DNA of 39,704 bases from Clostridiales bacterium (lineage in GTDB: Bacteria > Bacillota > Clostridia > Lachnospirales > Lachnospiraceae): assembly GCA_012519695.1 (NCBI GenBank), contig JAAYPT010000018.1:1-39704 (forward strand), in the 5' to 3' direction. A program made the position numbers and the translations under genes. Each line of letters starts with the position of its first letter. The stretch's first letter is position 1. This document shows positions 2,876 through 28,394 of this stretch, piece after piece. Below the pieces are notes generated by a model that made no database searches, was not told where the DNA came from, and saw only the letters and a program-made list of their open reading frames with translations.

Positions 2876-2888
2876 GCGAAACCAGTGT

Positions 2889-3252
2889 GGGGGCAAAAAG
2901 CGCCACCAAAACGTGCAAATGGGGGCAGTAAGCGCCCCCAAAACCACAAAGTGGGGGCAGAAAGCGCCCCCGCACAAATCAGAGCCGAAAAAGTGTGGAG
3001 GCAAAAAGTGCCGTCAAAATGGAAAAGTGGGGGCAAAAAGCGCCGTCAAAACAGCAAAGTGACGGCAAAAAGCGCCACCACTCAGATAAGCGAGAAAAAA
3101 GTTATGGTGGCGGAAAGTGCCGTCAAAATGGAAAAGTGGTGGCGGAAAACGCCACTAAAACAGTAAAGTGATGGCAAAAGGCGCCACCACTTTTAAATCA
3201 GGTGGAACTTTAGCCACCATATCAGTAATTGTGGTGGTACATTAACCACCAC
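2889..3252. repeat. Array of nine 19-bp palindromes in three triplets, plus two trailing hairpins
   Basis: Each unit is a dyad of the form GGNGGC, five bases, then GNGCCNNC. Units begin at 2889, 2921, 2953, 2997, 3029, 3061, 3106, 3138 and 3170. Spacing is 32 bp inside each triplet, with 44 and 45 bp between triplets (super-period 108-109 bp). Two related hairpins follow at 3201-3218 and 3231-3252. Arm changes in several units are matched on the other side (for example GACGGC or GGTGGC arms facing GCCGTC or GCCACC), so the pairing appears to be maintained. It lies just before the candidate oriT and mobC. Possible roles are binding sites for a mobilisation or replication protein, or structured RNA. 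Confidence 0.85.
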
Positions 3253-3494: not shown

Positions 3495-3825
3495 CAGGAA
3501 AGATTATAAGATATCGGTGAAGCTGTCAGAGAAAGATATGGATATTCTGAAAGCGGCACTTAAGCGAACAGGAATGACGGCAAGTGCCTATATAAGAGAA
3601 TTAATTCGGACAGGCGGCAACATTGATACAAGTTATCCAGAGGACAGGGCAAAAATAATTCGTGTTATTGCAGGTATTGCAAATAATATTAATCAGGCGG
3701 TAAAGCTTGGCAATTCACAGGGAAGATTGTATTACAGCGATATTGATAAATTGCAGAACAGTCTGGATGATGTAAAGAAAACATTCGGGGAGGTGCTGGA
3801 AGTATGGCGATTACAAAGATCTTAA
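3463..3825 (+). CDS. mobC: MobC-type relaxosome accessory protein
   Basis: This 120-residue protein has an N-terminal ribbon-helix-helix DNA-binding segment (KISVKLSEKDMDILKAALKR, then TGMTASAYIRELIRTGG) and the MobC-type helical region (IIRVIAGIANNINQAVKLGN). MobC proteins bind oriT and help the relaxase open the strands. The start at 3463 is preferred because GAAAGGGG lies about 9 bases upstream; a TTG further upstream would add an unlikely extension. Its 3' end overlaps the relaxase gene by 22 bp, implying translational coupling. Position after a candidate oriT supports the call. Confidence 0.88.
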   Translation: MADGKRRYKSDRKDYKISVKLSEKDMDILKAALKRTGMTASAYIRELIRTGGNIDTSYPEDRAKIIRVIAGIANNINQAVKLGNSQGRLYYSDIDKLQNSLDDVKKTFGEVLEVWRLQRS

Positions 3826-5579
3826 ATATAAAAGAGTCAGAAGGTAGAAATCCAGCATCACACCTAAAGAATGCTTTGGAATATATCCAGAATCCGGATA
3901 AGACAGAAGAATGTGTACTGGTGGGCGGTATTAACTGCCTGCCGGATACGGCATTTGAGCAGATGGAGGAGACAAAGAATATATTTCATAAGACAGGTAA
4001 AAGACAAGGCTATCATGTGATTATATCGTTTTCGCCGGAAGAAAAAGTAACTGCGGAACAGGCAATGTACGTCCTGGAACACTTTGCGAAGGCTGTACTT
4101 GGCGATGATTATGAAGCTGTGTATGCAGTCCATACTGACAGGGAACATATGCATGGGCATCTGATCTGGAACAGTGTCAGCATGACAACCGGCAAGAAAT
4201 ACAATTCACCTAAAAGCAACTGGAAGAACCATCTCCAGCCTATTACAAATAAATATTGTGATGAACTGGGGCTTGCTATCATGCCGGCAGAGTACAGCAG
4301 GAATCCGAAAAATATCAGCAGGGACAAGTGGGAAAGAGAAATGTCAATGAAAGAGATAATTCTCAGGGATGCAAAAATGTGTGCGTATGCAGCCGGAAAT
4401 GTGGAGCATTTTAAATATCTGATGAAAAGACTTGGATATGTATTCAAGAAAGATGCGTGGATGGAAGTGCAGGCACCGGGATTTCGGTATTATCATAAAC
4501 TGGCAAAGCTGGACGAGATGTTTTCAGAAGATATGCTAAGGCATCATGTGGATATGCCCTGGATGGTAAAGCCTTACTTTTATTCGTCGGATATCAGGGG
4601 ATTGCACAGGGCGAAGCTGTCATCATTCCAGAAGAAGTTTTATGCAAAGCTATACAGATTAAGGATTGTAGAGCAGAAGCGTTTTGCAGTCGGTGGAGCA
4701 AAGTATACAGAGGATTTGAAGCGATTTCATCAGTTACAGGACGAATATCTGCTGATTGTAAATAATGACATCAAAAGTGTTGTGGATCTTGTGGATTTCA
4801 TAAATGAGCAGGAAGAAAAGATTCAGCAGATTGAGGACAGACAGCATGAGATATACAGAGAAAGCTCTAGTCGGAAACGCAGTATAAAGAATGAAGAGCA
4901 GTACCGGGAATATCAGATATGGCATGTGGAAGTGCAGGAAGAACTGGACGAACTGAAGCAGGAGAAAAGGGAAATTAAGAGACAGATACAGCTTGCTGAT
5001 GACATTATAAAAGAAGATTTGTATACGGCTTATTATGCGGTGTCGGGGAAGGAGGAGATTGTTGCTGACAGGGATGTTGAGATACCGGGGATGGAAGAGG
5101 ATATGCTGGATGAGATAACAATAGAAGCGGTTGTTGAGCCGTATACAAATGTTGAGGTAATGAATCCTAACAATAATCAGAATGATACGTCTGTAATGCC
5201 AGATATTCGTAATGTGTCTGATGTAAATACGGCAAGAATGGATAAAGATATTACTGACGTAACAGATAAAGGTGAATATGTGGAAATTAGAGAAACTGAA
5301 CCTGTGGACAAAGCTGACTGGATTGTCAGGAGAATATCAGAGCTTGGTGGTTATGAGAATGTCAGTAATTCTGTTAAGGCAGATATATTCGGATTTGATA
5401 TTGCTGATGTAAGTGGAAGTATAAGACTGTTCTCGGATGTAATGAAAAAACTTGGAATGAAGCTGGATGGGGATGAACTTTATGAGGAGTTTCAGAGGAT
5501 TTATGATGAGAGTATCGATAGAGATGCCGGTAAAGATAAGGCGGAAGATAAGATGTGGAATAGGGGCAGAGGAAGATGA
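3804..5579 (+). CDS. MOBP-type relaxase / mobilisation nuclease
   Basis: This 591-residue relaxase should nick oriT and pilot the DNA strand during conjugative mobilisation. The N-terminal relaxase domain shows the metal-binding histidine cluster HTDREHMHGHLI (H110, H115, H117, H119) and a likely catalytic tyrosine in LEYIQNPDKT (Y27). The middle (about 330-400) is charged and predicted coiled coil (QEEKIQQIEDRQHEIYRESS and following). The C-terminal 150 residues are acidic and variable. GGGGAGG lies about 10 bases upstream of the ATG, inside mobC. No type IV coupling protein or secretion genes are visible, so the element is probably mobilised in trans (an IME) rather than self-transmissible. 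Confidence 0.9.
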   Translation: MAITKILNIKESEGRNPASHLKNALEYIQNPDKTEECVLVGGINCLPDTAFEQMEETKNIFHKTGKRQGYHVIISFSPEEKVTAEQAMYVLEHFAKAVLGDDYEAVYAVHTDREHMHGHLIWNSVSMTTGKKYNSPKSNWKNHLQPITNKYCDELGLAIMPAEYSRNPKNISRDKWEREMSMKEIILRDAKMCAYAAGNVEHFKYLMKRLGYVFKKDAWMEVQAPGFRYYHKLAKLDEMFSEDMLRHHVDMPWMVKPYFYSSDIRGLHRAKLSSFQKKFYAKLYRLRIVEQKRFAVGGAKYTEDLKRFHQLQDEYLLIVNNDIKSVVDLVDFINEQEEKIQQIEDRQHEIYRESSSRKRSIKNEEQYREYQIWHVEVQEELDELKQEKREIKRQIQLADDIIKEDLYTAYYAVSGKEEIVADRDVEIPGMEEDMLDEITIEAVVEPYTNVEVMNPNNNQNDTSVMPDIRNVSDVNTARMDKDITDVTDKGEYVEIRETEPVDKADWIVRRISELGGYENVSNSVKADIFGFDIADVSGSIRLFSDVMKKLGMKLDGDELYEEFQRIYDESIDRDAGKDKAEDKMWNRGRGR

Positions 5580-5590
5580 TTCCTCTGCCC
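5564..5590 (+). terminator. Perfect hairpin over the relaxase stop codon
   Basis: GGGCAGAGGA (5564-5573) and TCCTCTGCCC (5581-5590) flank a 7-base loop holding the relaxase TGA. There is no proper T tract, so it may stabilise the transcript end or act as a weak terminator between mobilisation genes and cargo. Confidence 0.45.
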
Positions 5591-5675
5591 AATATTAAAT
5601 TAAGAATGGATGTATAATTGAACACTAAAGATATACTAAATACTAATAAATCATATTTAAACAGTGAAATATCAG

Positions 5676-5704
5676 TTGAGGGAAACAGCTGTTCGTGATA
5701 TAAT
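5676..5704 (+). promoter_or_regulatory. Promoter of the restriction-modification operon
   Basis: TTGAGG (5676-5681) and TATAAT (5699-5704) are separated by exactly 17 bp and lie 41 bp upstream of the HTH gene at 5745. The spacer holds AAACAGCTGTT, a short palindrome (CAGCTG core) that could be an operator. Confidence 0.65.
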
Positions 5705-5744
5705 TACTTTGTTATTTTATACATTTTAGAATCGGAGGGAGAAT

Positions 5745-5930
5745 ATGTCTGAGACTAATGAAAAATGGTCTAATTTAGAAGAAACCGCAGAATATCTAGG
5801 TGTAACGAAAGATACCATAAGAAGTTGGATTAAAAAAACAGATATTCCTGCTCATAAGATAGGCAGACTTTGGAAATTCAAATTTTCAGAAGTGGATGAG
5901 TGGGTGAAAAGCGGAAAAAGTGCATTATAG
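5745..5930 (+). CDS. Small MerR/excisionase-fold HTH protein heading the R-M operon
   Basis: This 61-residue protein is essentially one HTH domain: NLEETAEYLGVTKDTIRSWI, then KIGRLWKFKFSEVDEWVKSG. This is the excisionase/MerR-like fold (helix_turn_helix_17 type) seen in many small regulators. It has a strong GGAGGGA site and lies 20 bp before the first methylase gene, under the promoter at 5676. A controller-type role for the R-M genes is likely from position, but binding targets are unknown. Confidence 0.72.
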   Translation: MSETNEKWSNLEETAEYLGVTKDTIRSWIKKTDIPAHKIGRLWKFKFSEVDEWVKSGKSAL

Positions 5931-5950
5931 AATAGAAAGTAGAAAAGAAA

Positions 5951-6685
5951 ATGATAAATACAGAATTACATAATGGAGATTGTCTTGAGTATATGAAAAA
6001 AATACCAACATCTTCGATTGATTTGATAATAACAGATCCACCATATAATTTAGGAAAGTTTATGGAGGAGAGAGATACTAATTTAGTTAAAATGCGGGAT
6101 AATTTTTTTGGGGCTGCAGGATGGGATGATTTAGATTATAAAGAATGGAAAAAATCTATGAATAAATTTTTTCATCAAGCATCAAGAGTTTTGAAGGATG
6201 GTGGTTCAATAATTGTATTTATGGCGATAATAAAGGTTGAGACAATAATACAATTAGCACAAAAACACGGACTGTATTATAAGACAACTGGTATATGGCA
6301 TAAGTCTAATCCAATGCCAAGAAATATGAATTTGCATTTTGTTAATTCGACAGAATCGTGGATATATTTTACTTATAAAACAAAGACAGGGACATTTAAC
6401 AACAACGGAAAAGTATTGCATGACTTTATTGAAACATCTGTTACATCAAACAGCGAAAAAAAATATGGAAAACATCCAACGCAGAAACCGGAAGCTTTAA
6501 TGGAACATTTTGTTAAGGTGTTGTCAAATGAAAATGATACAATTCTGGATCCTTTTATGGGAAGTGGAAGTGTTGGTGTGTCAGCTGTAAAAAACAATAG
6601 GAATTTCGTAGGAATCGAGTTAGATGAAAATTACTTTAATATAGCTATATCTAGGATTAAAGAGGTAAAGAAAGATGAAATATAA
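5951..6685 (+). CDS. DNA methyltransferase, DPPY type (N6-adenine or N4-cytosine), R-M modification subunit 1
   Basis: This 244-residue beta-class enzyme has the catalytic motif IV TDPPYNLG (29-32) near the N-terminus and the SAM-binding motif I LDPFMGSGSVG (about 200-207) near the C-terminus, with HPTQKP just before it. This order defines the beta class; base specificity (A-N6 or C-N4) cannot be told by eye. The stop codon overlaps the C5 methylase start by 11 bp, so the two are coupled. LlaJI-type systems carry two methylases, one per strand of an asymmetric site, which fits this pair. Confidence 0.88.
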   Translation: MINTELHNGDCLEYMKKIPTSSIDLIITDPPYNLGKFMEERDTNLVKMRDNFFGAAGWDDLDYKEWKKSMNKFFHQASRVLKDGGSIIVFMAIIKVETIIQLAQKHGLYYKTTGIWHKSNPMPRNMNLHFVNSTESWIYFTYKTKTGTFNNNGKVLHDFIETSVTSNSEKKYGKHPTQKPEALMEHFVKVLSNENDTILDPFMGSGSVGVSAVKNNRNFVGIELDENYFNIAISRIKEVKKDEI

Positions 6686-7736
6686 GGTTATAGATTTATT
6701 TGCTGGAGTTGGTGGAATGTCATTAGGTTTTGAAATGGCAGGGTTTGATGTGGTTCTTGCCAATGAATACGATAAAGATATTGCAACTGCATATAAAAAG
6801 AATCATAGTTCTACTAAAATGATAAATGAAGATATAACCAAACTTGATTTGCAATCAGTATTTGAACAATATAAAGGTAATATTGACGTTATAATAGGCG
6901 GTCCGCCATGTCAGGGTTTTTCGCAGAAAGGAAAGAGAAAAACAATACATGATGAACGTAATTTCTTGTTTAAATATTACGTTAAAGTGGTGGATTTAGT
7001 AAAACCTCAATATTTTGTAATGGAAAATGTGCCTAATTTATTAACTGCTGAAAAAGGATATTTTAAGCGAGAAATAGAAGAATTATTTTCAAAAATGGGG
7101 TACATTCTAGATGCTGGTGTATTAAATGCAGCGGATTATGGAGTTCCGCAAAATCGAAGACGTGCCGTCATTATTGGGAAAAAGGCAAATGAAAAAAGGG
7201 TAAACTTGCTGCCTAAACCGGTTAATAAAAAAGTTTCAGTATGGGATGCAATAAGTGATTTAGCATATCTTAATTCTGGTGAGGGTGATGAAATTCAGGA
7301 TTATAAATTCGAAGCCAGAAGTGAATATCAAAAGAAGATGAGAATGAATTCAAATAAATTGCTTAATCATAAAGCAACTAATCATTCGAAGCTTGCATTA
7401 GAACGCTTAGCCCTTGTTCCACCAGAACAGGGAAAGGAATGTTTACCAGAGGAACATTTAACAAAATCAATATATAGTGGTACTTGGTGCAGAATGCAAA
7501 AAGATGATGTTTCTGTAACAATTACAACAAGATTTGATACTCCGTCATCAGGTAGATTTACACATCCATATTTGAACAGGGCAATTACAGTGCGCGAAGC
7601 AGCAAGAATACAGTCATTTCCTGATACTTTTGAGTTTGTTGGACCAAAGGTTTCACAGATGAAACAAGTAGGAAATGCGGTACCACCGCTATTGGCTAAT
7701 AAGATTGCCGATTCAATATTAAATGACATAACATAG
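6675..7736 (+). CDS. DNA (cytosine-5-)-methyltransferase, R-M modification subunit 2
   Basis: This 353-residue Dcm-family enzyme shows the motifs in canonical order: motif I DLFAGVGGMSLGFEMAGF (7-24), motif IV GGPPCQGFSQ with catalytic C79, motif VI MENVPN, motif VIII QNRRRAVIIG, and motifs IX/X (REAARIQSFPDTF, QVGNAVPPLLA). The target-recognition region lies between about 190 and 290. It is co-translated with the upstream methylase (11-bp overlap) and ends 13 bp before the McrB-like gene. It should protect host DNA from the endonuclease encoded downstream. Confidence 0.95.
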   Translation: MKYKVIDLFAGVGGMSLGFEMAGFDVVLANEYDKDIATAYKKNHSSTKMINEDITKLDLQSVFEQYKGNIDVIIGGPPCQGFSQKGKRKTIHDERNFLFKYYVKVVDLVKPQYFVMENVPNLLTAEKGYFKREIEELFSKMGYILDAGVLNAADYGVPQNRRRAVIIGKKANEKRVNLLPKPVNKKVSVWDAISDLAYLNSGEGDEIQDYKFEARSEYQKKMRMNSNKLLNHKATNHSKLALERLALVPPEQGKECLPEEHLTKSIYSGTWCRMQKDDVSVTITTRFDTPSSGRFTHPYLNRAITVREAARIQSFPDTFEFVGPKVSQMKQVGNAVPPLLANKIADSILNDIT

Positions 7737-7749
7737 GAGGAATGTTTAA

Positions 7750-9972
7750 ATGAAAAGACCAAGTAATATACAGAAATTTAAACCTGTTGATCCTAAATTG
7801 GGAATTAAATCATCTTTGCCTAAATCAAAGTCTACAATTGCTCTTGTAATTTTGCTATGGTTGTCAAATGACAAAAAGTATGAAATTGAGTATTCTGAGA
7901 CAGATGGCGATAAAATAACGATATCTGAGAACTGTTATGATAAATTGATACAATATTTGAGAAATAATATAGATATTAAAGGCGATTCTGAAGAAGATAT
8001 CATGAATTATGTAAATGAAAACCAATTATTTCATTCACAGTTAGAGTCGCTTATTGTTGCACTTGAATTAGTGTGGAGAATTGCATCTATTAAATTTAAG
8101 GATAGTAATAAAGCGGATAGTGCAGAAAGAACTGGGAAGAAAAGATTTGAGAAAATATTATCGTATACAAATAATATTGATTTATTTGACGCTTTGATTG
8201 AAAGTAATAAAAAATATTGCCAAGTATTATATGAATGGCTACAAGGAAAGAAGAATGTAGAAGATACACATTTAGAAAAACAATTGGTTAGAGTTATAAA
8301 TTATCTTTCAGATGATGTTGTGTTGAAAATGTTAGACAATAATCAGAACGTATATTTTAATATGACATCCGTGTATGAAGCTATGACACAAAAAACAGAT
8401 GAAATTGATATCAATGGAGATGGAGAAGCAAAGGGTGCATTAAGAATTGTAAAAGGTGCTTTAGGAGAAGGACTAAATTACTATTTGGCATATAATAAGA
8501 ACATTGTTACAATGTCGGATAATGTAGATTATGATGAATTTGTATATTATGAACAAAGGGTAAGAGAGCGACAGAAAATAAGTAATGTGAATATATTGCT
8601 CCACGCTGCGGAAAATGATGATGAAAATACAACTGACATTTCGTGTTCAAAAAATAGGATAATATTTGGTGCTCCGGGAACTGGTAAGAGTCATAAACTA
8701 GAGGAAAATAGCAAATATTTTGCTGATAATATGGAAAGAGTAACATTCCATCCAAACTATTCGTATGCAAATTTTGTAGGTGCATATAAACCTATTATGT
8801 CAAAGTCAGACGTATATGATAATCTTGATACTGAAAAGAGAAGAGTGCTTGCAGTTCTGCAAGACAAATCAATGTCAGCACAAGAAAAATATGATGAATT
8901 GTACGATAAATTCAAGGATGAAAGTTTAACTCGTCTACCATTATTACTAGGTATATATACGGATGAGAATTTTAAAACTAGAAAAGTGGATGGTAGTGAT
9001 GCTGCCGGTGATAATAGTGTGGAGAGAAATCATGGAAGGGCTATTAGACCATATTTAAGTTTAAATCCACAGAATATAAATAAAGAAATCTCGTATGAGT
9101 TCGTTCCGGGTCCATTTATGAGAATTTATGTGCAAGCAATAAACCATCCGGAAGAAGATTACTTATTGTTAATAGAGGAAATTAATAGAGCAAATGTAGC
9201 AGCAGTGTTTGGAGATGTATTTCAATTACTTGATAGAAAGAATGGAGTAAGTGAATATCCAATTGCTACAAGCGAGGATATAAAGACTTATTTATTAGAA
9301 AACTTGGATTGTCTAAAAGGGAAAAATATTGATGATTTAACAGAAGAAGAAAGAGAAAAGTATTTTGAGATGAGAATTCCGGCAAATATGTACATATGGG
9401 CAACGATGAACAGTGCAGATCAGGGCGTATTTCCAATGGACACAGCATTTAAGCGTAGATGGGAATTCGAATATTTAAGTGTCAATGATGATGAGCAGGT
9501 TGCAGCAATAAAAGATTATGTCATACCAATGTGTATTAAGGACAATAAAGCGGATCATTATATTGGCTGGGATAGTTTAAGAACAAGGATAAATAATGTT
9601 TTGACATCTGAAAAGTGTAAGGTTAATGAAGACAAGCTTTTAGGACCATTTTTTATATCTAAAAATATGTTAGACGAGATAAAGAACAATAAAGAGCAAA
9701 TAGACGAATTAGAAGCAAAAGATGAAGCTTCTCTGACTGAGAGAGATAACGAAGCACTTAAAGATATGCATCAAAAAGAGAATAGTTATATAAAAGCATT
9801 TGAAAGTAAAGTAATCATGTATTTGTTTGAAGATGTTATGAAGATGCGTCCGGAGAACATATTTATAGGTCATCATAAAAAGAATGGAAAGATGATTTTT
9901 TCAGAAATATGTAAAGCCTTTGAGCAGGATGGTGAAGGCATATTTGGAATTGAAGATTTGGAAAATATATAA
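7750..9972 (+). CDS. McrB-like AAA+ GTPase, restriction subunit (LlaJI R1 type)
   Basis: This 740-residue motor subunit has an N-terminal 280 residues that are probably the DNA-recognition module and not recognisable by eye. It then shows a Walker A GAPGTGKS (307-314), a Walker B/McrB signature LLLIEEINRANVAAVFGDVF (about 471-490) and the sensor ATMNSADQGVFPMDTAFKRRW (about 551-571). The last resembles the MNTADRS GTP-specificity motif of McrB. In McrBC and LlaJI systems this protein forms a hexameric nucleotide-driven translocase that recruits the nuclease subunit. It starts 13 bp after the C5 methylase gene and is followed after 17 bp by the nuclease subunit. Confidence 0.88.
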   Translation: MKRPSNIQKFKPVDPKLGIKSSLPKSKSTIALVILLWLSNDKKYEIEYSETDGDKITISENCYDKLIQYLRNNIDIKGDSEEDIMNYVNENQLFHSQLESLIVALELVWRIASIKFKDSNKADSAERTGKKRFEKILSYTNNIDLFDALIESNKKYCQVLYEWLQGKKNVEDTHLEKQLVRVINYLSDDVVLKMLDNNQNVYFNMTSVYEAMTQKTDEIDINGDGEAKGALRIVKGALGEGLNYYLAYNKNIVTMSDNVDYDEFVYYEQRVRERQKISNVNILLHAAENDDENTTDISCSKNRIIFGAPGTGKSHKLEENSKYFADNMERVTFHPNYSYANFVGAYKPIMSKSDVYDNLDTEKRRVLAVLQDKSMSAQEKYDELYDKFKDESLTRLPLLLGIYTDENFKTRKVDGSDAAGDNSVERNHGRAIRPYLSLNPQNINKEISYEFVPGPFMRIYVQAINHPEEDYLLLIEEINRANVAAVFGDVFQLLDRKNGVSEYPIATSEDIKTYLLENLDCLKGKNIDDLTEEEREKYFEMRIPANMYIWATMNSADQGVFPMDTAFKRRWEFEYLSVNDDEQVAAIKDYVIPMCIKDNKADHYIGWDSLRTRINNVLTSEKCKVNEDKLLGPFFISKNMLDEIKNNKEQIDELEAKDEASLTERDNEALKDMHQKENSYIKAFESKVIMYLFEDVMKMRPENIFIGHHKKNGKMIFSEICKAFEQDGEGIFGIEDLENI

Positions 9973-9989
9973 AAAGGGGATGAGAGACA

Positions 9990-11972
9990 ATGACGAAAGG
10001 TTTCTTTCGTGAAAGAAAGCATTATTCTTTACAGGAAATAACATACAATTTAATTAACATAAATATGGAAGAAACCAGACGCATTGTCGGGATTCTTAAA
10101 AAATATGGAGTAGTTAAAGCTGTAAAAAAGAATAAGCCGGATTTTGATGATTTATCAAATGAGGATATTGTCTTGACTGATGTAATAGACAGCTCAAGCG
10201 ATATAGAATATATATTTGATTATGTTGGAGTTGTTGTAATCGAGGGACAAGTTTTTAAATGTTATCCTAAATATATCAAATCAACAGAACATTTATTTGA
10301 AAATCTAAAGCAGGTTTTAAAGGTTATAAAAAAATACAATGCATCAGAACAGTTGATTTATCTGTTTAATGGAGAAGATGATAGTAAGATTTTTAATAGA
10401 CTGGCTGTATCTATTCATTTGTTAGAGACATATTATGCTGATGGTTTGTATACGAATCAGAAAGAAATAATTGAAACAAATGGAGAAGGTGAGATTTTAT
10501 GGGATAAGACTATAAATGAAACATTTGCAATTATACAGAATAACAAACCATATTATGTGGAATTACAAACCAAGAATACGATTGACAATGACTATGATTA
10601 TTTTCGGCGGTTACATGAATGCGTTCTTACACAATGTAGCAGAGAATTATCAGATGCAGGACTTTTAGAATTATTTGAATTAACAGAAGTTGAGCTTACA
10701 CAAGAAGAAATGTCTGATTTTGGTGATGCGAGTTATATATTATATCGGTTGCAGTCTGAGATACAAACTCAATATATTACAAGGAAACAGAATCTTCTAA
10801 AAACAATATATACATATATTGCTAACGAGAAAACAGACAAAAATGATGTGAGCTATAGTTTATATGGAACTAATAGTTTTAACTTGGTTTGGGAAAAAGT
10901 ATGTGCTGATAATTTTGGAAGTGTTCTAGATAAGAAAATAGTAGATCTTCCATTAAGTAATCAGGAATGGAATAAAGTTGACTATAAAGATAAAACATTA
11001 AGAAAAGTGATTAAATCACCAAGATGGAGAAAAACAGAGTTTCCGGATGTAGAAGATCCGAAGGTGGAAACATTAAAACCTGATTTGGTATGCATATATC
11101 CTGTTGATGAACAGAAAAAAGATTATTGCTTTGGAATATATGATGCAAAATATTATTGTATAGATTATCAAATACATGGAGATAAAGCTATCATTAGTGG
11201 ACAACCGGGTGTAGGTGATGTCACAAAGCAATATTTATATCAATTAGCATTTGATGATTTTATTATGAAACAGGGATACAGATATGTGCAAAATATGTTT
11301 TTCTGTCCTGATGAAGTTGGAGATAAGCAGTATGGTTGGGTACAGATGGAAATTCTAAATCATATTGGGAATAAAAGATTGGAAAATATAGCGGTTGTAA
11401 AATTATGTGCATCAAAAATGTATCAATTGTATCTTGATAATCAGACAATTAGTGAGCATGAGATTAATCAATATATACCAGATATAGGTAGACAAGAAAT
11501 ATCAGAGCAAAATTTTGCTAATCGAATGATGGCATATCTTATGCGTATTACAAACGCTAGTAAAATGGCTGAGGAAAAGCTTGAGATGAAAGCAGATCAA
11601 GGTAAATTGATATATCCTAGACAGATAAAAAGAGAACTTGGAGCGAAAATTATTTATGATGCTATTTGCCCGGTTGCAAGCAAAGCTTTTTATGGATTTA
11701 ATCCATACGAAAAAGAAAACTATGGCAATATGGTAGCAGAGGATATAGACAACTCTTATGGAAGATGCAATCAGATTGCAGATGCATCCATTGAAATAGA
11801 GAAAAAGATAAAAGAGTTGTCGGAAAAGGAACTTCAGGATGAAAAGATAATTATAGATATTCTCAGGAAGTGCTTTGAGGGTAAAGAAGATATAGCATCT
11901 ATGGTTGAAGGGGATAATTTGGAGCTGCTGGTTGAAAAAGTTATGGAATTGATAAGGGAAGTGTATTTGTAG
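9990..11972 (+). CDS. LlaJI-family restriction endonuclease subunit (R2/McrC-like)
   Basis: This 660-residue protein resembles the LlaJI R2 family. It opens with a winged-helix-like segment (SLQEITYNLININMEETRRI, then VGILKKYGVVK), followed by the family's central region (FDYVGVVVIEGQVFKCYPKYI). A probable nuclease core lies near 365-400 (TLKPDLVCIYP, then YCFGIYDAKYY), fitting a PD-(D/E)xK fold with the D of KPDLV and the D-x-K of YDAKYY. It follows the McrB-like gene by 17 bp. Two methylases plus McrB-like plus this subunit is the LlaJI layout. LlaJI itself is known to recognise GACGC; the site here is not inferable. A 36-bp gap leads to Hachiman HamA. Confidence 0.82.
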   Translation: MTKGFFRERKHYSLQEITYNLININMEETRRIVGILKKYGVVKAVKKNKPDFDDLSNEDIVLTDVIDSSSDIEYIFDYVGVVVIEGQVFKCYPKYIKSTEHLFENLKQVLKVIKKYNASEQLIYLFNGEDDSKIFNRLAVSIHLLETYYADGLYTNQKEIIETNGEGEILWDKTINETFAIIQNNKPYYVELQTKNTIDNDYDYFRRLHECVLTQCSRELSDAGLLELFELTEVELTQEEMSDFGDASYILYRLQSEIQTQYITRKQNLLKTIYTYIANEKTDKNDVSYSLYGTNSFNLVWEKVCADNFGSVLDKKIVDLPLSNQEWNKVDYKDKTLRKVIKSPRWRKTEFPDVEDPKVETLKPDLVCIYPVDEQKKDYCFGIYDAKYYCIDYQIHGDKAIISGQPGVGDVTKQYLYQLAFDDFIMKQGYRYVQNMFFCPDEVGDKQYGWVQMEILNHIGNKRLENIAVVKLCASKMYQLYLDNQTISEHEINQYIPDIGRQEISEQNFANRMMAYLMRITNASKMAEEKLEMKADQGKLIYPRQIKRELGAKIIYDAICPVASKAFYGFNPYEKENYGNMVAEDIDNSYGRCNQIADASIEIEKKIKELSEKELQDEKIIIDILRKCFEGKEDIASMVEGDNLELLVEKVMELIREVYL

Positions 11973-12008
11973 GAACTGATAGGTTATATGTTGGAAGGTG
12001 GTTATTAA

Positions 12009-12884
12009 TTGTTTGAATATATGTATAAGGTGCCGCAGAATGAATATAAAACAACATATGGGGCGTTAAAAGTTAGTAATATTGTTTTTGAACCGGGAGA
12101 AATTGAGAGAGTCTTGCCAGATATAGTATTTACTGATGATAATTTAAAGCATATGTTTGCTGAAGAAAACTTAAACTTAAATAAAAGAAGGAATATATAT
12201 CGAAGATTCATACCTAAAGATGAAATGTTACCAGATATTAATACATTTGTTGCTTCTAATATATTAACAAATAGGTCATTTTATTCTTTTTTGGCAGAAG
12301 GAATTCTTGGACTTGTTTTTAGAGATTTATATGATTTAGATTTAGCAAAAGGAATAATAGATATTACAGAAACATTATCAGACTCACACACAGGAGTAGA
12401 TGCGTGCTTATATAATCTTAATCATAATATTATTGTTTTAGGAGAAGCTAAATTCTATGAAAATTTAAGTAGAGGAATGGATAAAATAATAAAAGACTTT
12501 GTTGAGAAGAGCATAAAAAATAAACTTGAAAGTTTGCAGGCGAATGTGGAAAACTGTGATGAGGCTATTCAGATTGTAATAAAAAATTTAAAGATGGAAG
12601 AATACGATGAATTGACGATTGATCAATTTATGAATCAGAAAATAGTGTTCGCAGGTTTTGTTTTACATTCGGAAAATGATGTTAGCCATTATAATGAACC
12701 TAATTTCTATAGTAGATATTTTGTATCTACCAGTCAATTAAAGGACAATATAAATAAATCACTCAATCATAATGATATAAATGGAGAATATGAAATTATA
12801 TTGGTTCATTTGCCTATAAAAGATAAGAAAAGTCTTATTGTAAAAATGATAGAGACATCAAGAGAAAAACTTAGAAGCTTGTAG
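12009..12884 (+). CDS. hamA: Hachiman HamA, DUF1837 nuclease (first system)
   Basis: This 291-residue protein shows the spaced nuclease residues of DUF1837/HamA: E98 in FLAEGILGL, D131 in HTGVDACLYN and E146-A-K148 in VLGEAKFYENL, forming a PD-(D/E)xK-type centre. Hachiman is a two-gene anti-phage system in which the HamB helicase monitors DNA and HamA degrades DNA upon activation. TTG at 12009 sits 8 bases after GGAAGGTGG; ATG at 12021 is an alternative start. The hamB ribosome-binding site overlaps this gene's stop codon, so the pair is coupled. Fold and residues are read from sequence; the Hachiman call rests on those plus the helicase partner. Confidence 0.85.
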   Translation: MFEYMYKVPQNEYKTTYGALKVSNIVFEPGEIERVLPDIVFTDDNLKHMFAEENLNLNKRRNIYRRFIPKDEMLPDINTFVASNILTNRSFYSFLAEGILGLVFRDLYDLDLAKGIIDITETLSDSHTGVDACLYNLNHNIIVLGEAKFYENLSRGMDKIIKDFVEKSIKNKLESLQANVENCDEAIQIVIKNLKMEEYDELTIDQFMNQKIVFAGFVLHSENDVSHYNEPNFYSRYFVSTSQLKDNINKSLNHNDINGEYEIILVHLPIKDKKSLIVKMIETSREKLRSL

Positions 12885-12898
12885 AGGTGATACAGTGT

Positions 12899-14938
12899 AT
12901 GAACAGTTATAAGTATAATAAAAAACGTAAAAAGATGTTAGAAGAATTGGATGCAGGGAAAGAGGTACCGATTATTGAATTGGGAATGTATGATTTGACA
13001 CCATATTTTAAAATAGATGATTTCGATATTAGCTTATCTGAAAAGATTATGATTAATAAGAATTATGAGAGAAAAATAGAACATGTTCCTAAAGAGTTAT
13101 TTTTTTCACCACCTCAGTATAAAGCATTAGAGTGCTTATTTAGAGAAAATAGGGTTATTCTATCTGCACCAACATCTTTTGGTAAAACATTGATAGTAAA
13201 GGAATACATATATAGAAAGAAACCAAGAAAAATCGTTTATATTGTACCTACAAACGCATTAGCGTATGAATTAGAACGCAGTTTTAAAGAAAATGATAAG
13301 TTCTCAGATTATACTATTTTCGATAAATGTGCTATAGACGAACAGAAAGAAAACATTACAGATGAAAAACTTTTATTCGTTGGAACTCAAGAAAAGTATT
13401 TAGAAATAGATAAAGATATTATGGGAGAAGTAGATTTATTTGTTATTGATGAAGCATATAAATTGCAGGAGACAATTAAAAATCAAAGGGCATATAAATT
13501 GTCAGAAACATTTTTAGATAGTATGTCTATTTGCTCAAAGAAAATATTCTTACTTACACCAAAAGCAATACTTAAAGGATTTGAAAAATATCAATTTGTT
13601 ACATTTAAATCTGATTTTAATGCAGTTGATAAAAATTATATTGTTTTGGATAAAAATAATTTTTATGAAATACTTTTAAACAGAGGGAAAGAAGAAAAAA
13701 CAATACTGTTTTGTAATTCTCCCAAACAAATAAATGACAGTTATGAACAAATAAAAAATTTAACAAATATTAATATGGATACTGAGTTTGTAAGACTATT
13801 GGAAACAGAAATACATCCTGATTGGAGTGTTGTTAAGTTATTAAAAGCAGGAATTCTGACGCATCATGGTCAAATGCCAAAGTTTGTTCAAAATCGAATG
13901 GTTACACTTTTTAATGAATGTAATAATTATAATATTTTATGTGGCACAAACTCTATTTCAGAAGGAATAAATACTGTAACTAAAAATTTATTTATTCATC
14001 CTGAGTATAATAACTTGAATGACATATTGTTGCTGAAGAATACAATAGGAAGAGCTGGAAGACTTGGAAAATATCCAATAGGATACATTTATTCATGTAC
14101 TAAGATTGAAGAGTTGGTTGAAAATGAAATCGTAATCTCATTGGCTATTGCCAATGAGGAAGAATTGTCAGAAATAGAAGATAGCAAGGATGATGAGAAA
14201 ATATCACAATTTAGTATTGAAAATAATCTGGAATTAGAATTTAGTAAACATTTAATAAATGCTTATAAGTTATCATTATCCAAGTTGAAGAATATTCTAG
14301 AAGCCTTTTGTATTGACAGGAAATATCAAAATATTTCAAATTTACCATTTATTGCTAATAGTGCATTTGCTAATGAATATCCAGGTAAATTAAATATTGA
14401 TAAATTATTAATTACAGGTTATTTGCAGACCTATTATAATGAAAACCATCAAAAAATATATTTAAACAACTTTAATGACAGGATTATTTATTTTAAAAGC
14501 AAATATGAAAAATCAATGAGTAATACAGATATAATAAATGCATATATGCAGTTTATATATTCCACTCTAGAATATTACATAATGCCGCTCGTTAATATAG
14601 GCTTAGAAATAAAGGAAAAATATCCAGACTGGCATTTTGGAAAAAATGTAATTGAATCATTGGAGGATTGTAAGAATAAATACTACACAAGAACATATGG
14701 AAGATTAAATATTGATGATTTGTCGGATAGACATAAACTTATTATAAGTGCGATGAAGGATTATGGAATGACTAGTATTATAAAAAACCTCAATGAAGCA
14801 ATATTGCATGAGATAGAAAGTTGTCTTAATGTTAGATATTCTACAATAGATGTATTGCGTGCTATAAATTATTTAGCAAATAATTCTGATAAAAATAGGG
14901 ACTTTTATTTAGAAATAAAGAAAAAATATATGGTATAA
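12899..14938 (+). CDS. hamB: Hachiman HamB, superfamily-2 helicase (first system)
   Basis: This 679-residue SF2 helicase has a Q-like segment FSPPQYKALECLF, motif I APTSFGKT (90-97), motif Ia VYIVPTNALAYE, motif II IDEAY (a DEAH variant, 183-187), motif III LLTPKA, motif V CGTNSISEGINTV and motif VI TIGRAGRLGKY. The C-terminal 280 residues are a HamB-specific helical region. ATG at 12899 is chosen because AGAGGTG precedes it at a normal distance, while GTG at 12887 lies inside that site. No frameshift is visible, so this system is probably functional. It is followed after 30 bp by the COG2865 regulator, perhaps in the same transcript. Confidence 0.87.
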   Translation: MNSYKYNKKRKKMLEELDAGKEVPIIELGMYDLTPYFKIDDFDISLSEKIMINKNYERKIEHVPKELFFSPPQYKALECLFRENRVILSAPTSFGKTLIVKEYIYRKKPRKIVYIVPTNALAYELERSFKENDKFSDYTIFDKCAIDEQKENITDEKLLFVGTQEKYLEIDKDIMGEVDLFVIDEAYKLQETIKNQRAYKLSETFLDSMSICSKKIFLLTPKAILKGFEKYQFVTFKSDFNAVDKNYIVLDKNNFYEILLNRGKEEKTILFCNSPKQINDSYEQIKNLTNINMDTEFVRLLETEIHPDWSVVKLLKAGILTHHGQMPKFVQNRMVTLFNECNNYNILCGTNSISEGINTVTKNLFIHPEYNNLNDILLLKNTIGRAGRLGKYPIGYIYSCTKIEELVENEIVISLAIANEEELSEIEDSKDDEKISQFSIENNLELEFSKHLINAYKLSLSKLKNILEAFCIDRKYQNISNLPFIANSAFANEYPGKLNIDKLLITGYLQTYYNENHQKIYLNNFNDRIIYFKSKYEKSMSNTDIINAYMQFIYSTLEYYIMPLVNIGLEIKEKYPDWHFGKNVIESLEDCKNKYYTRTYGRLNIDDLSDRHKLIISAMKDYGMTSIIKNLNEAILHEIESCLNVRYSTIDVLRAINYLANNSDKNRDFYLEIKKKYMV

Positions 14939-14968: not shown

Positions 14969-16351
14969 ATGACAACTGAATTGATGAGAGATTTGCTCAC
15001 AAATGATGAGAAAATAACAATTGAGTACAAAACCTGTCAGTATGGCATTCAGGAAGATGTGTATGAAACAGTATGCTCTTTTTCTAACAGATATGGTGGG
15101 TATATTATCATGGGTGTAGAGGATGATGGTACCCCAATAGGTATTAATCCGAATATGGTTAAGGATATGAAAAAGATTTTTGTGAATCAGCTAAATAACC
15201 CGGATAAGATGTCACCAACATTATATCTTTCAATAGAGGATATTGTATATGAAGGGATGACGCTGTTATGGGTGTATGTTCCGCCAACATCTACTGTAGA
15301 AAAGTGTGCAAACAGGATCTATGACAGAAATGAAGATGGGGACATGGATATTACGGACTCTCCGATTCAACTACAGAATATGTATAACAGAAAAAGCAAC
15401 ACATATGCGGAGCACAAGATATTCCCATATGTTACAATGGAAGATTTACGCATGGATTTGATGGATAAAGTAAGAAATCTTGCAAAGAGCAAAAATCCGG
15501 ATCATCCTTGGTTGAAAATGTCGGATGAGGAAATATTGAAGAGTGCTGGCTTATGGGAAAAAGATTTTTCATCAGGTATCCAAGGATATAATCTTGCAGG
15601 TGTGTTATTGTTTGGCAAAGATGATGTGATAAGGTCTTGCTGTCCTGGATATATTACCGATGCATTATATAGGGTTGAGAATCTAGATAGGTATGATGAT
15701 AGATTGCAGGTAACAACTAATTTGATAGAGGCATATGATCTTTTAATGGAATTTGTTGCAAAGCATACATCAGATAAATTTTGCTTAATCAACAATATTA
15801 GCACGAGTATTAGAGGTATTATTTCAAGAGAGGTTATTGGTAATATACTTGTGCACAGAGATTATTCAAGTGCATATCCAGCAAAGGTGATTATCGAAAA
15901 GGATTGGCTGAGAACAGAAAATTGGTGTATTCCTAGACGCCATGGAAATATTATGAGTGATGAGTTTACTCCGTATCCAAAGAATCCTTTAATTCAGCAA
16001 TTTTTTGCTAATATTGGTAGAACAGATACTATTGGTTCGGGAGTAAGAAATCTTTACAAATATACACCAATGTATTCAGATGGCGGTAAGCCAGAGCTGA
16101 TTGAAGATGATGTATTTAGAATTAATATACCATTAGACAGAATAGCTGCAGATGAAGCAACAGAACAGAAAACATTATCTGAAAGAGAACAGAAAATTTA
16201 TAATATGATTTGTGAGAATCTGCATTTATCAGTTGAACAGGTAATGGCAGAATTGGATATATCAAGATCAACGGTGTTTAGAGACTATGCGAAAATTAAG
16301 AAAGTAACAGGTGCCGTTTACGATAAAAAGACTTCAACATGGACATTGTAA
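14969..16351 (+). CDS. Schlafen/AlbA_2-domain ATP-binding protein with C-terminal winged helix (COG2865 type)
   Basis: This is a 460-residue putative transcriptional regulator. The N-terminal AlbA_2 domain (about 10-130) carries the hallmark EYKTCQYGIQEDVYETVCSF, then NRYGGYIIMGVEDDGTPIGI. The middle (about 190-385) matches the ATPase-like region of this family (FGKDDVIRSC, REVIGNILVHRDYSS, IGRTDTIGSGVRNLYKY). The last 65 residues form a winged helix (LSVEQVMAELDISRSTVFRD). It directly follows Hachiman on the same strand. Its stop codon abuts an array of TGAGACT motifs with an 11-bp period, which I infer to be its own operators. Proteins of this family often sit in defence islands; the precise role is unknown. 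Confidence 0.82.
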   Translation: MTTELMRDLLTNDEKITIEYKTCQYGIQEDVYETVCSFSNRYGGYIIMGVEDDGTPIGINPNMVKDMKKIFVNQLNNPDKMSPTLYLSIEDIVYEGMTLLWVYVPPTSTVEKCANRIYDRNEDGDMDITDSPIQLQNMYNRKSNTYAEHKIFPYVTMEDLRMDLMDKVRNLAKSKNPDHPWLKMSDEEILKSAGLWEKDFSSGIQGYNLAGVLLFGKDDVIRSCCPGYITDALYRVENLDRYDDRLQVTTNLIEAYDLLMEFVAKHTSDKFCLINNISTSIRGIISREVIGNILVHRDYSSAYPAKVIIEKDWLRTENWCIPRRHGNIMSDEFTPYPKNPLIQQFFANIGRTDTIGSGVRNLYKYTPMYSDGGKPELIEDDVFRINIPLDRIAADEATEQKTLSEREQKIYNMICENLHLSVEQVMAELDISRSTVFRDYAKIKKVTGAVYDKKTSTWTL

Positions 16352-16530
16352 TGAGACAGTCTCAAGTTAGTCTCAACAAAGTCTCATGAATTTTGACACT
16401 TGACGAGACTGAAGCAAAATCTAAAAACGTGATAAAATCGGGACTTTTAGCGTGTTGGAAAAACTTAGTCTCAAATCAGTCTCAACTTAGTCTCATTTTT
16501 AAAGTGAGATTATGAGACTGACTTGAGACT
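16352..16530. promoter_or_regulatory. Operator-like array of AGTCTCA / TGAGACT heptamers with 11-bp period
   Basis: The array begins immediately after the COG2865 stop codon with the palindrome TGAGAC-A-GTCTCA (16352-16364). AGTCTCA repeats at 16358, 16369 and 16380 (exact 11-bp steps), then again at 16467, 16478 and 16489 (11-bp steps). The inverse TGAGACT lies at 16513 and 16524, again 11 bp apart, with a lone GAGACT at 16405. The second and third groups can also fold on each other as a long hairpin (16467-16484 with 16513-16530, one mismatch). A helical-turn period places all sites on one DNA face, as for cooperative protein binding. Confidence 0.75.
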
Positions 16531-16577
16531 AAAAAAGACTAATGAATTTATATGATTTGTCGATTGGAGAAGATAAA

Positions 16578-16868
16578 ATGAATCAATTTCTATCTATAGC
16601 ATTAAAAACACATTTTGAAAGTCTGAGGGTTAGCGGCAAGGGAGAAAATTATTGGCAATGTTATCAAGCTTTTTTAAATTACTGTGATATATATGGAGAT
16701 TGTGATCTTAAGGATTTATTCAATAACAAATTATTAAGGCAGGATATAGTGTGCGCATGTGCGTCATATTATAATTCTAGCGCAAAGGCACATAGAAAAG
16801 AGGCAGTTAATAGATTTTTGTCTGCAATCGATTTGTTCTATAAAAAAGATGGGTGGTATAGAATGTAG
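16578..16868 (+). CDS. N-terminal part of a recombinase-like protein (SAM-like domain)
   Basis: This 96-residue frame is helical (ALKTHFESLRVSGKGENYWQ, then KAHRKEAVNRFLSAIDLFYKK) and resembles the N-terminal core-binding domain of tyrosine recombinases. GGAGAAG precedes the ATG at 16578. It ends a few codons after an A6 run (16842-16847). Past that run the next frame continues with recombinase-like sequence, so this gene and the next are probably two halves of one frameshifted gene, or two subunits. It starts 47 bp beyond the TGAGACT array. Confidence 0.5.
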   Translation: MNQFLSIALKTHFESLRVSGKGENYWQCYQAFLNYCDIYGDCDLKDLFNNKLLRQDIVCACASYYNSSAKAHRKEAVNRFLSAIDLFYKKDGWYRM

Positions 16869-16899
16869 TGCACTTGAAGGTGGATGTAGGAACAATGAA

Positions 16900-17508
16900 A
16901 TGATTGAAGATATTGAAAAATGTCTCAATACAAAATTAAAGCAAGAAATATATTGTCCGATAGATGATAAGATTGAAATTGAGATAATAAAAATTTGTAA
17001 TAATCTAAAAAAGAGTGATTTTTATAAATTCGGTCAGAAGATATTATGCAACCTTCTCTTAAAATATGGATTTAAACTAAACTTATTAGTAAACTTAAAA
17101 GAGGCTGATGTAAATGACATTGATGGAATTATTACAATTAGAAATAAAGATAGTGTAATCAATCTAAGTGTGGATAAGTCAATGGTATCTGATATTAGAC
17201 AATATAATATGGTACATAGATATCCTAATAGAGAATACTTCTTTTTGAATACAAAGGGAAATAAGATTACCTCTAGTTCGGCACTGGCTACGATACAAGA
17301 AAAATTAGAAGAAGTTAATAACATAAATACAACAACACTTGCACTAAAGGGCGTATCAAAACTTATTCAGAAAGGACTTACTCTGAGTGAGATAAAGTAT
17401 CTTACGGGGTTTGAAACTAAGAAGATAGAGGATGTTTCTATGTGGTTGATGAATCAGGAAGATGTAGAAAGCGTTATAAATAATAAGCTTAATTTAATTG
17501 ATATATAA
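16900..17508 (+). CDS. Catalytically dead tyrosine recombinase-like protein (C-terminal half)
   Basis: This is 202 residues from the ATG at 16900; the frame is open from upstream of 16842. The pattern follows a tyrosine recombinase catalytic domain but without its residues. KYGFKLNLLVNLKEADVNDI stands where TGLRxSEL-LxLxxxDID is usual, TTLALKGVSKLIQKGLTLSE replaces the HxLRHTxAT box, and no Tyr nucleophile follows TGFETKKIEDV. It may bind DNA without cutting it, or be a decaying gene. The recombinase resemblance is by eye only. A +1 shift at the A6 run 16842-16847 would fuse it with the upstream half. Confidence 0.45.
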   Translation: MIEDIEKCLNTKLKQEIYCPIDDKIEIEIIKICNNLKKSDFYKFGQKILCNLLLKYGFKLNLLVNLKEADVNDIDGIITIRNKDSVINLSVDKSMVSDIRQYNMVHRYPNREYFFLNTKGNKITSSSALATIQEKLEEVNNINTTTLALKGVSKLIQKGLTLSEIKYLTGFETKKIEDVSMWLMNQEDVESVINNKLNLIDI

Positions 17509-19633: not shown

Positions 19634-19684
19634 AGTCTCACCAGTCTCAAATCATTATGAGACTGGTGAGACGTAGATGAGACT
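19634..19684. promoter_or_regulatory. 15-bp perfect inverted repeat built from TGAGACT motifs
   Basis: GTCTCACCAGTCTCA (19635-19649) and TGAGACTGGTGAGAC (19658-19672) flank an 8-base loop, and another TGAGACT lies at 19678-19684, 11 bp after the preceding copy. These are the same heptamers as in the array at 16352-16530. The hairpin lies between the convergent genes ending at 19605 (plus) and 19718 (minus), but lacks a T tract, so an operator reading is preferred over a terminator. Confidence 0.65.
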
Positions 19685-27371: not shown

Positions 27372-28394
27372 ATGTCTGGTGAACAAGTTGAAAAGCAAAG
27401 ACGTGGTCCGAGGAGTAATCAGAAACTTAAGATACTGTATTTAGCAAAGATTTTATTAGATAATACGGATGCTAATCATGATATTACTTTGCAGGAAATT
27501 ATCGACAAATTAGCTGCAAACAATGTGACAGCAGAACGAAAGAGCTTGTATGATGATATTGCCTAATTAGATGATTTTGGAATTAAGATAAAGAAGACAC
27601 AATATGGAAAAACCTATCATTATCAGGTGATTAACCGTGAGTTTGAACTGGCAGAGTTGAAACTTTTGGTGGATTCTGTTGCGTCAGCGAAGTTTATTAC
27701 AGAAGAAAAATCCAACGAACTTATTAAGAAGATAGAACACTTGGCAAGTAAGCAGGAAGCTTCCATGCTACAGCGTCAGGTCTATGTATCGGGTCGTGTA
27801 AAGACAATGAATAAAGATATCATGGAAAACGTAGATGCCATTCATAATGCGATTTCCCAGAATCTTAAAATTTCCTTTCAGTATTTTCAATGGAATAGTA
27901 AGAAGGAGCCGGAACTGCGCAAGAATGGAGAAAGGTATATTATTAGTCCATGGGGATTGTCATGGGACGATGAGAATTATTACCTGGTAGGTTACGATTC
28001 CGGAGCGGATAGAATCAAGCATTACCGCGTGGATAAGATGCTCAAAATCAAAGTGGAATCCACAAGACGTGAGGGCAGAAATAAATTCAAGGAAGTGGAT
28101 ATGGCTGCTTATGCAAAGAAGATGTTCAACATGTTTGATGGAGAAGAGCAGAATGTAGAAATCTTGTGCGTAAATGAATTAGCGGGAGTTATGATTGACC
28201 GCTTTGGTAAAGATGTACGAATGCTCAAAGTAGATGACGAACATTTCAGAGTAGTTGTAAAAGTTGCAGCAAGCAGTCATTTCATTCATTGGATTATGGC
28301 ATTGGGAGATGGTGCAAAGATTATAGGTCCGGAGAGCCTGGTGGAAGAAGTAAAAAAAGAAATACGGAGATTATCCCAACAATATGAGAAATAA
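27372..28394 (+). pseudogene. WYL-domain transcriptional regulator interrupted by an in-frame stop
   Basis: The N-terminal HTH (NQKLKILYLAKILLDNTDAN, then TLQEIIDKLAANNVTAERKS) is followed by YDDIA and TAA at 27564-27566. The same frame then continues without a gap: LDDFGIKIKKTQYGKTYHYQ and a full WYL domain (ISPWGLSWDDENYYLVGYDS, then HYRVDKM). Normally this is one protein of about 340 residues. GGAGGTG precedes the ATG. An ATG-type restart at about 27627 would give a 255-residue protein lacking the HTH. WYL regulators often control defence islands by sensing nucleic-acid ligands; here DNA binding is probably lost unless the stop is suppressed. Confidence 0.8.

Follow-up and report, generated by a model that had tools for sequence, protein, structure and literature searches.

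C.Kpn2I, a controller protein, was described to bind within its own coding region and to block the elongating RNA polymerase, and its authors suggest that own-gene binding may be widespread among C.Kpn2I-like proteins (PMC6237814, consulted in part, as are all the papers cited here). BldC is a 68-residue MerR-like protein that acts at the promoters of a regulon (PMC5859096). A 2026 survey describes Schlafen RNases that are fused to a minimal histidine kinase and a wHTH and are linked to BREX and related systems, a fusion that is given there for at least 1017 taxa (PMC12839542). In this paper we looked at a gene with AlbA_2 and winged-helix domains and at the array of short repeats at its 3' end, in a stretch of 39,704 nucleotides from a Clostridiales bacterium of the Lachnospiraceae (the window). 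Across the relatives of this gene the words of the array change along with the DNA-reading domain, as if the gene carried binding sites for its own product. The explanation that we propose, with a probability of roughly 0.68, is that the sites of the array are bound by the protein encoded in the array's own gene, through its winged helix.

The gene (14969..16351, + strand) is an open reading frame for a Schlafen/AlbA_2-GHKL-winged-helix protein of 460 amino acids, the presumed reader of the array. Its SLFN_AlbA_2 domain (15008..15343, + strand; residues 14-125) matches Pfam PF04326 with an E-value of 9.7e-16 and 58.8 bits, which passes the curated cut-off of 25.3. The GHKL-type ATPase core (15806..16138, + strand) carries a conserved E288-N292-H296 box and a D353..GSG box, which we take to be the boxes of GHKL ATPases. 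No Pfam ATPase domain was found in the protein, and histidine-kinase ATPase domains are weak Foldseek matches to its structure model. The C-terminal winged helix (16178..16348, + strand; residues 404-460) is given by Pfam and by the model, with HTH_DeoR at residues 406-444 (E 6.4e-5). In the order AlbA_2-GHKL-wHTH, for which the earlier note used the label COG2865, the outer domains are assigned by Pfam, and the ATPase only by the conserved boxes and the 3lmm fold. The model has a mean pLDDT of 84.9 and a pTM of 0.56; it matches DIP2311 (3lmm) with an E-value of 6.4e-19 over 511 alignment columns and a TM-score of only about 0.4, indicating that the domains are placed differently, and it also matches the SAMD9 tRNase domain and SLFN13. 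E14 and E19 are invariant in the 23 aligned relatives, and at position 52, 20 of them have D, 2 have E and 1 has N (counted by hand in the alignment). In a profile alignment, again counted by hand, E14, E19 and D52 fall with one constant offset on the three catalytic residues of SLFN13; in the rat protein E205 and E210 are the most needed, with D248 (PMC5862951). Judged by these three acidic residues the window protein would be a Schlafen RNase, and RNA cleavage itself is predicted.

The region 3804-14938, where a relaxase, two methyltransferases, restriction genes of the AAA/LlaJI type and a divergent pair of Hachiman genes lie, is a defence island on what seems to be an integrative element. 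In front of the relaxase gene, 2884-3190 holds a tandem array of units that resemble hairpins (about 32 bp, within 108 bp). Behind the array, 16542-17508 contains a small ORF and a tyrosine-recombinase-like ORF, and at one other locus (L070) relatives of both ORFs stand before the homologous gene. Farther along the window there are a WYL regulator (27627-28394) and an OLD-like ATPase with a TOPRIM domain (32617-34455). The link to Hachiman that was drawn in the earlier note is not supported: HamA and HamB of the window are unmatched (tblastn, E up to 1e-6) in the flanks of 88 other loci, 85 of them distinct, the flanks being at most 3 kb long and some of them cut.

The stop codon of the gene, TAA (16349-16351, read from the sequence), is adjoined with no gap by the palindrome TGAGACAGTCTCA (16352-16364, no strand assigned). 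The array is built of two blocks, each with forward sites and then reverse sites. Block A (16358..16410, no strand assigned) has AGTCTCA at 16358, 16369 and 16380, in 11-bp steps, and a degenerate opposite site, CGAGACT, at 16404. Block B (16467..16530, likewise without strand) has forward AGTCTCA sites at 16467, 16478 and 16489, followed by opposite sites, which are a degenerate TGAGATT at 16505 and TGAGACT at 16513 and 16524. On direct reading all the coordinates of the earlier note proved correct, with every heptamer step that it listed exactly 11, and Tandem Repeats Finder gives a period of 11 for both forward blocks. The heptamers occur 15 times in the window against 3.9 expected from mononucleotide shuffles. 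Both blocks recur in close relatives of the window gene; within this group the two-block layout is found again, the spacers and the DNA beyond vary, and one member (L064) has no site at all.

When exact matches were counted in a search that allowed up to 2 mismatches, the pair AGTCTCA-N4-AGTCTCA was found five times in the 3.16-Mb genome, all five within the window array. A pattern search found the exact tandem pair in 9 of 200 genomes of the host's family, compared with 2 of 200, one match each, for the pattern written backwards. In eight of the nine genomes a homologue (G000, G131, G052, which is cut by the contig end, and G135, which is interrupted) or a C-terminal homologue fragment (G103, G120, G068, with a tblastn E of 0.04 only, and G188, seen by eye with no tblastn match) stands directly before the pair, four of each; in the ninth (G160) the pair lies within a coding sequence that by eye seems unrelated. 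Three homologues (L046, L052 and L053) are cut down to the last winged-helix codons and their arrays are still well-formed. In the window itself there is a cluster of five sites of the array's heptamer type, 3 kb past the array and behind an unrelated gene (19634..19684, no strand assigned), with AGTCTCA at 19634 and 19643, TGAGACT at 19658 and 19678, and TGAGACG at 19667. No remnant of the window protein was found beside this orphan cluster (L007; tblastn, E up to 1), which may be a relic or may serve as a target in trans.

We collected relatives from 30 loci of one homologue search and from the best 80 of at least 564 relatives. Eight were removed, namely one locus cut at a contig end (L038), four genes that run off (L069, L111, L113 and L125) and three duplicates (L061, L065 and L074, of L017, L018 and L021), which left 102. 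A strict test asked for three or more copies of an exact 6-mer, with steps of 8-13, within the final 420 nt of the gene and the 200 nt that follow. It found an array in 69 of the 102 relatives, compared with 6 of 2040 sequences after dinucleotide shuffling and 4 of 198 windows placed inside the same genes. The 69 include two interrupted or frame-shifted genes (L019 and L102), which were left out of the core, upstream and position tests. A relaxed test (a 7-mer with one mismatch, one or two turns, at least four copies) gave 73 of 102, with 2 of 204 shuffles and 1 of 101 controls. One test or the other was passed by 83 relatives, a figure for which controls exist per test and none combined; 33 of the 102 fail the strict test and 19 fail both. 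Three relatives with a KSRTSVQR-type winged helix (L085, L086 and L091) have no array near the gene end by either test. A more distant set (22-30% identity) consisted of 60 loci picked by hand from lower-scoring search rows by E-value and a long open frame; of the 59 that were testable (L158 runs off), 21 have an array, against 3 of 1180 shuffles and 1 of 59 controls. The hosts of arrays include both bacteria and archaea, among them Lachnospiraceae, spirochaetes, Desulfuromonas, Gelidibacter and Methanosarcina. In viral contigs, which were searched with the window protein alone, there were 4 pattern matches and no relative. That the array goes with the AlbA_2/winged-helix gene, as had been claimed, is borne out by the 69 relatives with arrays at the 3' end.

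One of the questions that arise is where in these genes the array lies. By the strict test it is coding in 54 of 98 genes, behind the stop codon in 13, in both places in 0 and in neither in 31, so the two positions are mutually exclusive; L019, L102 and two genes under 900 nt were left out of this count. The coding arrays end at a median of 209 nt before the stop codon, just ahead of the winged-helix codons. The distance from the ATPase core to the C-terminus has a median of 71 residues in genes with a downstream array and of 95.5 in genes with a coding one (12 of the 13 and 46 of the 54 genes, respectively). From this placement and the shorter linker of the downstream group it follows that the array adjoins the winged-helix segment in both positions, and where it is written into the linker codons before the winged helix, array and reader would travel as one module. 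The earlier note had proposed to look for repeats downstream of homologues and to count their lack as a refutation. Repeats were indeed found, but they are more often coding than downstream, so that a test of the downstream DNA alone would mislead.

The core word of the array covaries with the winged helix, and related winged helices come with related cores. CGATAA cores are found with most NRNRKY winged helices, CAAG[TC]TACC with TIPDKP and GTCCCTC with VGSGNxGHW. When only the residues behind the array are scored, in 58 of 67 genes (nine redundant winged helices were left out), core and winged-helix similarity correlate with r = 0.425 (0/3000), and with 0.401 (0/3000) after N-terminal similarity is removed; the core and the N-terminus, given the winged helix, give 0.039 (379/3000). 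A wider C-terminal segment, the last 72 codons or residues, gives r = 0.450 (0/5000) and a partial value of 0.426. This segment overlaps the array in 59 of 71 coding arrays, and 0.450 is slightly inflated because the scored segment includes array-coded residues; the same script gives 0.447 with the overlap and 0.425 without it. For the opposite-strand core there is no such correlation (r -0.07). With the distant set added, 79 genes in all, r is 0.375 and the partial value 0.366 (0/3000), and the value for the N-terminus given the winged helix is 0.033 (616/3000). The predicted covariation across homologues is therefore found, with the 21 genes of the distant set as an exception. In these alone the N-terminus is the better guide to the core: with array-coded residues removed, the partial correlation is 0.414 (0/3000) for the N-terminus, given the winged helix, and 0.153 (253/3000) for the winged helix, given the N-terminus; with array-coded residues kept, the two values are 0.392 (0/3000) and 0.189 (133/3000). 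A single case is L138, which shares its body with L025 (N-terminal similarity 0.79, winged helix -0.06, core 4.2 of 8) but has the winged helix and the core in common with L034 and L129 (N-terminus 0.42, winged helix 0.48 and 0.43, core 7.0 of 8); it reads as a domain swap, which fits the module view.

Could the repeats be neutral tandem repeats that ride with the C-terminal segment, so that the agreement of core and winged helix is only shared descent? As a linkage control, 24 nt of the array correlate with the winged helix at r = 0.367 (0/2000), and neighbouring stretches of 24 nt at 0.054 in front (46/2000), 0.107 beyond (1/2000) and 0.010 after the stop codon (691/2000); the winged-helix codons themselves give 0.173 (0/2000). 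The weak correlation of nearby DNA (0.054-0.173) means that part of the signal is shared descent, and the N-terminus being the best predictor of the core in the distant set speaks for the same. Against it, the value of the array exceeds that of the winged-helix codons, the heptamers are conserved between variable spacers, and the downstream group has them on both strands. In addition, coding and downstream genes with related winged helices have a mean core similarity of 5.55 (22 pairs) vs 4.77 (418 pairs), but the 22 pairs involve no more than three downstream genes, among which L170 is doubtful, its "downstream" chain looking like a chance match that was left in. In these alignments the covariation is not mere linkage, and we consider a neutral origin improbable.

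Another possibility is that the array acts as RNA and that DNA binding is irrelevant, the opposed sites forming an mRNA hairpin that serves as a terminator or as a Schlafen-domain substrate. Folding suggests a possible long RNA hairpin from the opposed sites of block B (16465..16532, + strand); the region 16455-16545 folds with -38.1 kcal/mol (z -8.5) and 0 of 200 shuffles are as stable, and an inverted copy is likewise seen at the end of L020/L021-type arrays. Block A, however, is not more stable than its shuffles (z -1.2). The block B hairpin has no T run behind it, and a terminator scan lists no site there, its only one lying elsewhere and on the other strand. The coding arrays, moreover, were found by words in the same direction, and the opposite-strand core does not follow the winged helix. 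We regard an RNA role as quite improbable.

The DNA in front of the gene was also compared. In the 300 bp before the matched start there is no excess of sites, with 13 core matches against 12.0 expected from mononucleotide shuffles (58 of 67 genes, those with enough flank); the gene body has 38 against 47.4 and the DNA farther downstream 37 against 28.2. The 358 matches against 31.8 in the array region are there by construction, as the core was derived from it. With no excess in front of the gene, the array does not look like a promoter operator, and the protein does not match a classical autorepressor, which has its operator at its own promoter. Between the two blocks, TTGACA-N16-CAAAAT was considered as a promoter and rejected, since the scan gave 13 promoter-like sites with 13.3 expected, and it counts as no evidence. 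That no excess is seen in front also bears on another idea, in which the integrative element uses the repeats as iterons for partition or replication and the protein is a centromere binder. This idea draws on the integrase and relaxase in the window and on the winged-helix protein TubR, which loads on direct-repeat blocks (PMC5016525). There, however, tubC lies before the operon, and the arrays described here are at 3' ends and follow a single protein family, whose members have AlbA_2 and ATPase-like domains. This is not the placement of a partition centromere, which lies in front of a par operon, and we consider an iteron role very unlikely.

The spacing of the sites is less uniform than the window suggests. 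Among genes with at least four clustered copies in the 102, the steps are 12 bp (174), 11 (46), 9 (26), 21 (25), 13 (23), 10 (20) and 18 (19), and steps of 14-17 occur 3-6 times each. The spacing of about 11 bp that was expected is seen in the window group (11 or 10-11), but elsewhere steps of 12, 13, 9+12, 10+11 and 21 are found, and a constant 11 bp was rejected given steps that span 9-13 bp and also 21. The idea of one helical turn per step along one DNA face survives in the same way: it suits the 11-bp step of the window group and is not general, because steps of 12, 13 and some of 18 do not keep one face. Single arrays are irregular as well; steps of 11 and 10 bp take turns in L042, L097 has the series 11-9-13, and units of 13 bp are found in L150, L160, L165, L166, L167 and L175. 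Of 71 coding arrays, 16 carry their word in more than one frame (the 13-bp unit of L150 is translated successively as NKRK, QAEK and TSGK), from which it appears that the DNA and not the peptide is conserved. The view that slippage has expanded flexible linker peptides, for example TPQ-type tetrapeptides, and that the downstream case is a coincidence, would suit the coding steps, mostly multiples of 3 with 12 by far the commonest (169), and the single frame kept in the other 55 of the 71 arrays, but frame-independent units such as those of L150 led us to reject it as the sole account, and non-coding arrays in 13 of 98 genes, exclusive of coding ones, and a core that tracks the winged helix even without array-coded residues make it extremely unlikely.

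Returning to the array as a row of binding sites, its parts are held with different confidence. Based on the comparisons above, the winged helix very probably binds the array. Copies of the protein would load side by side at their own gene's 3' end, where close-packed sites take up 9-13 bp each, and we lean towards this loading being cooperative and head-to-tail. Steps of 12 and 13 bp would wind round the helix, and the 11-bp step of the window group would fit loading on one face. In coding arrays the bound protein may block RNA polymerase within its own gene, and/or it may be parked on its own DNA, so that the Schlafen-type RNase would never rise above what the gene can hold. The window array lies behind the stop codon, so a roadblock could not stop translation of this gene and cannot be the whole story; self-limitation by parking on the own gene would be one purpose that suits both array positions. 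We rate self-limitation as the most likely purpose of the array, at a little less than even odds. A bolder form of this idea, a DNA safety catch, has an outside chance: the RNase would be inactive as an oligomer on its own gene, and destruction or loss of that DNA, by phage attack on the host DNA or by loss of the mobile element, would free the protein for tRNA cleavage, with the gene's own DNA acting as the antitoxin. Such a catch would explain sites that lie in the gene, in any frame, and are not enriched at the promoter.

Repetitive linkers in the Schlafen/AlbA_2-winged-helix family look like low-complexity sequence, and our data suggest that many of them are DNA elements embedded in coding sequence. 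If the binding is true, each gene yields a winged helix together with its word, which would amount to a code table for winged-helix specificity and would offer a way into the control of Schlafen-type defence proteins. A gene that holds its own binding sites would be an unusual form of self-control for a mobile defence gene, and a portable one, as it would need no promoter site and would move with the gene in horizontal transfer.

In the literature that was searched, to a limited depth, we found no description of such self-embedded arrays. COG2865 is named in five papers, and in the one of them that was consulted it stands in a figure legend only. The nearest precedent for the coding arrays is C.Kpn2I, from a mobile defence gene with a site in its own gene. 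Among the relatives, 54 of 98 have the array inside the coding region, and in the window it comes after the stop codon. C.Kpn2I belongs to another protein family and, as far as the consulted part of that paper goes, has a binding site and not an iterated array, whereas the array here covaries across a family, stands near the 3' end or behind the stop codon, and goes with Schlafen and ATPase-like domains. BldC resembles the proposed loading as a winged helix-turn-helix that binds head-to-tail and cooperatively on variable numbers of direct repeats, which at smeA-sffA are one turn apart, comparable to the 11-bp steps of the window array; it differs in that the part consulted describes no self-embedded array (PMC5859096). 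TubR/tubC and other centromere binders share the winged helix and the direct-repeat blocks, on which a filament is formed there, and differ in having sites before the par operon, a motor partner and, in the sections consulted, no Schlafen or GHKL domain (PMC5016525). RdfS is an oligomerising wHTH on an integrative element and binds near its own gene too, as is proposed for the window protein; it differs in having no consensus motif, sites at promoter and attP, and a role in recombination (PMC11963761, for the portion consulted). The Schlafen-histidine kinase-wHTH fusions have apparently the same domain order and a defence context, and in the text of the survey that was available no DNA array is described and the term "direct repeats" is absent (PMC12839542). 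Taken together, roadblocks at a self-site and loading on direct repeats are of kinds already known, and what appears to be new, as judged from sequence, is a self-embedded array that recurs across a protein family.
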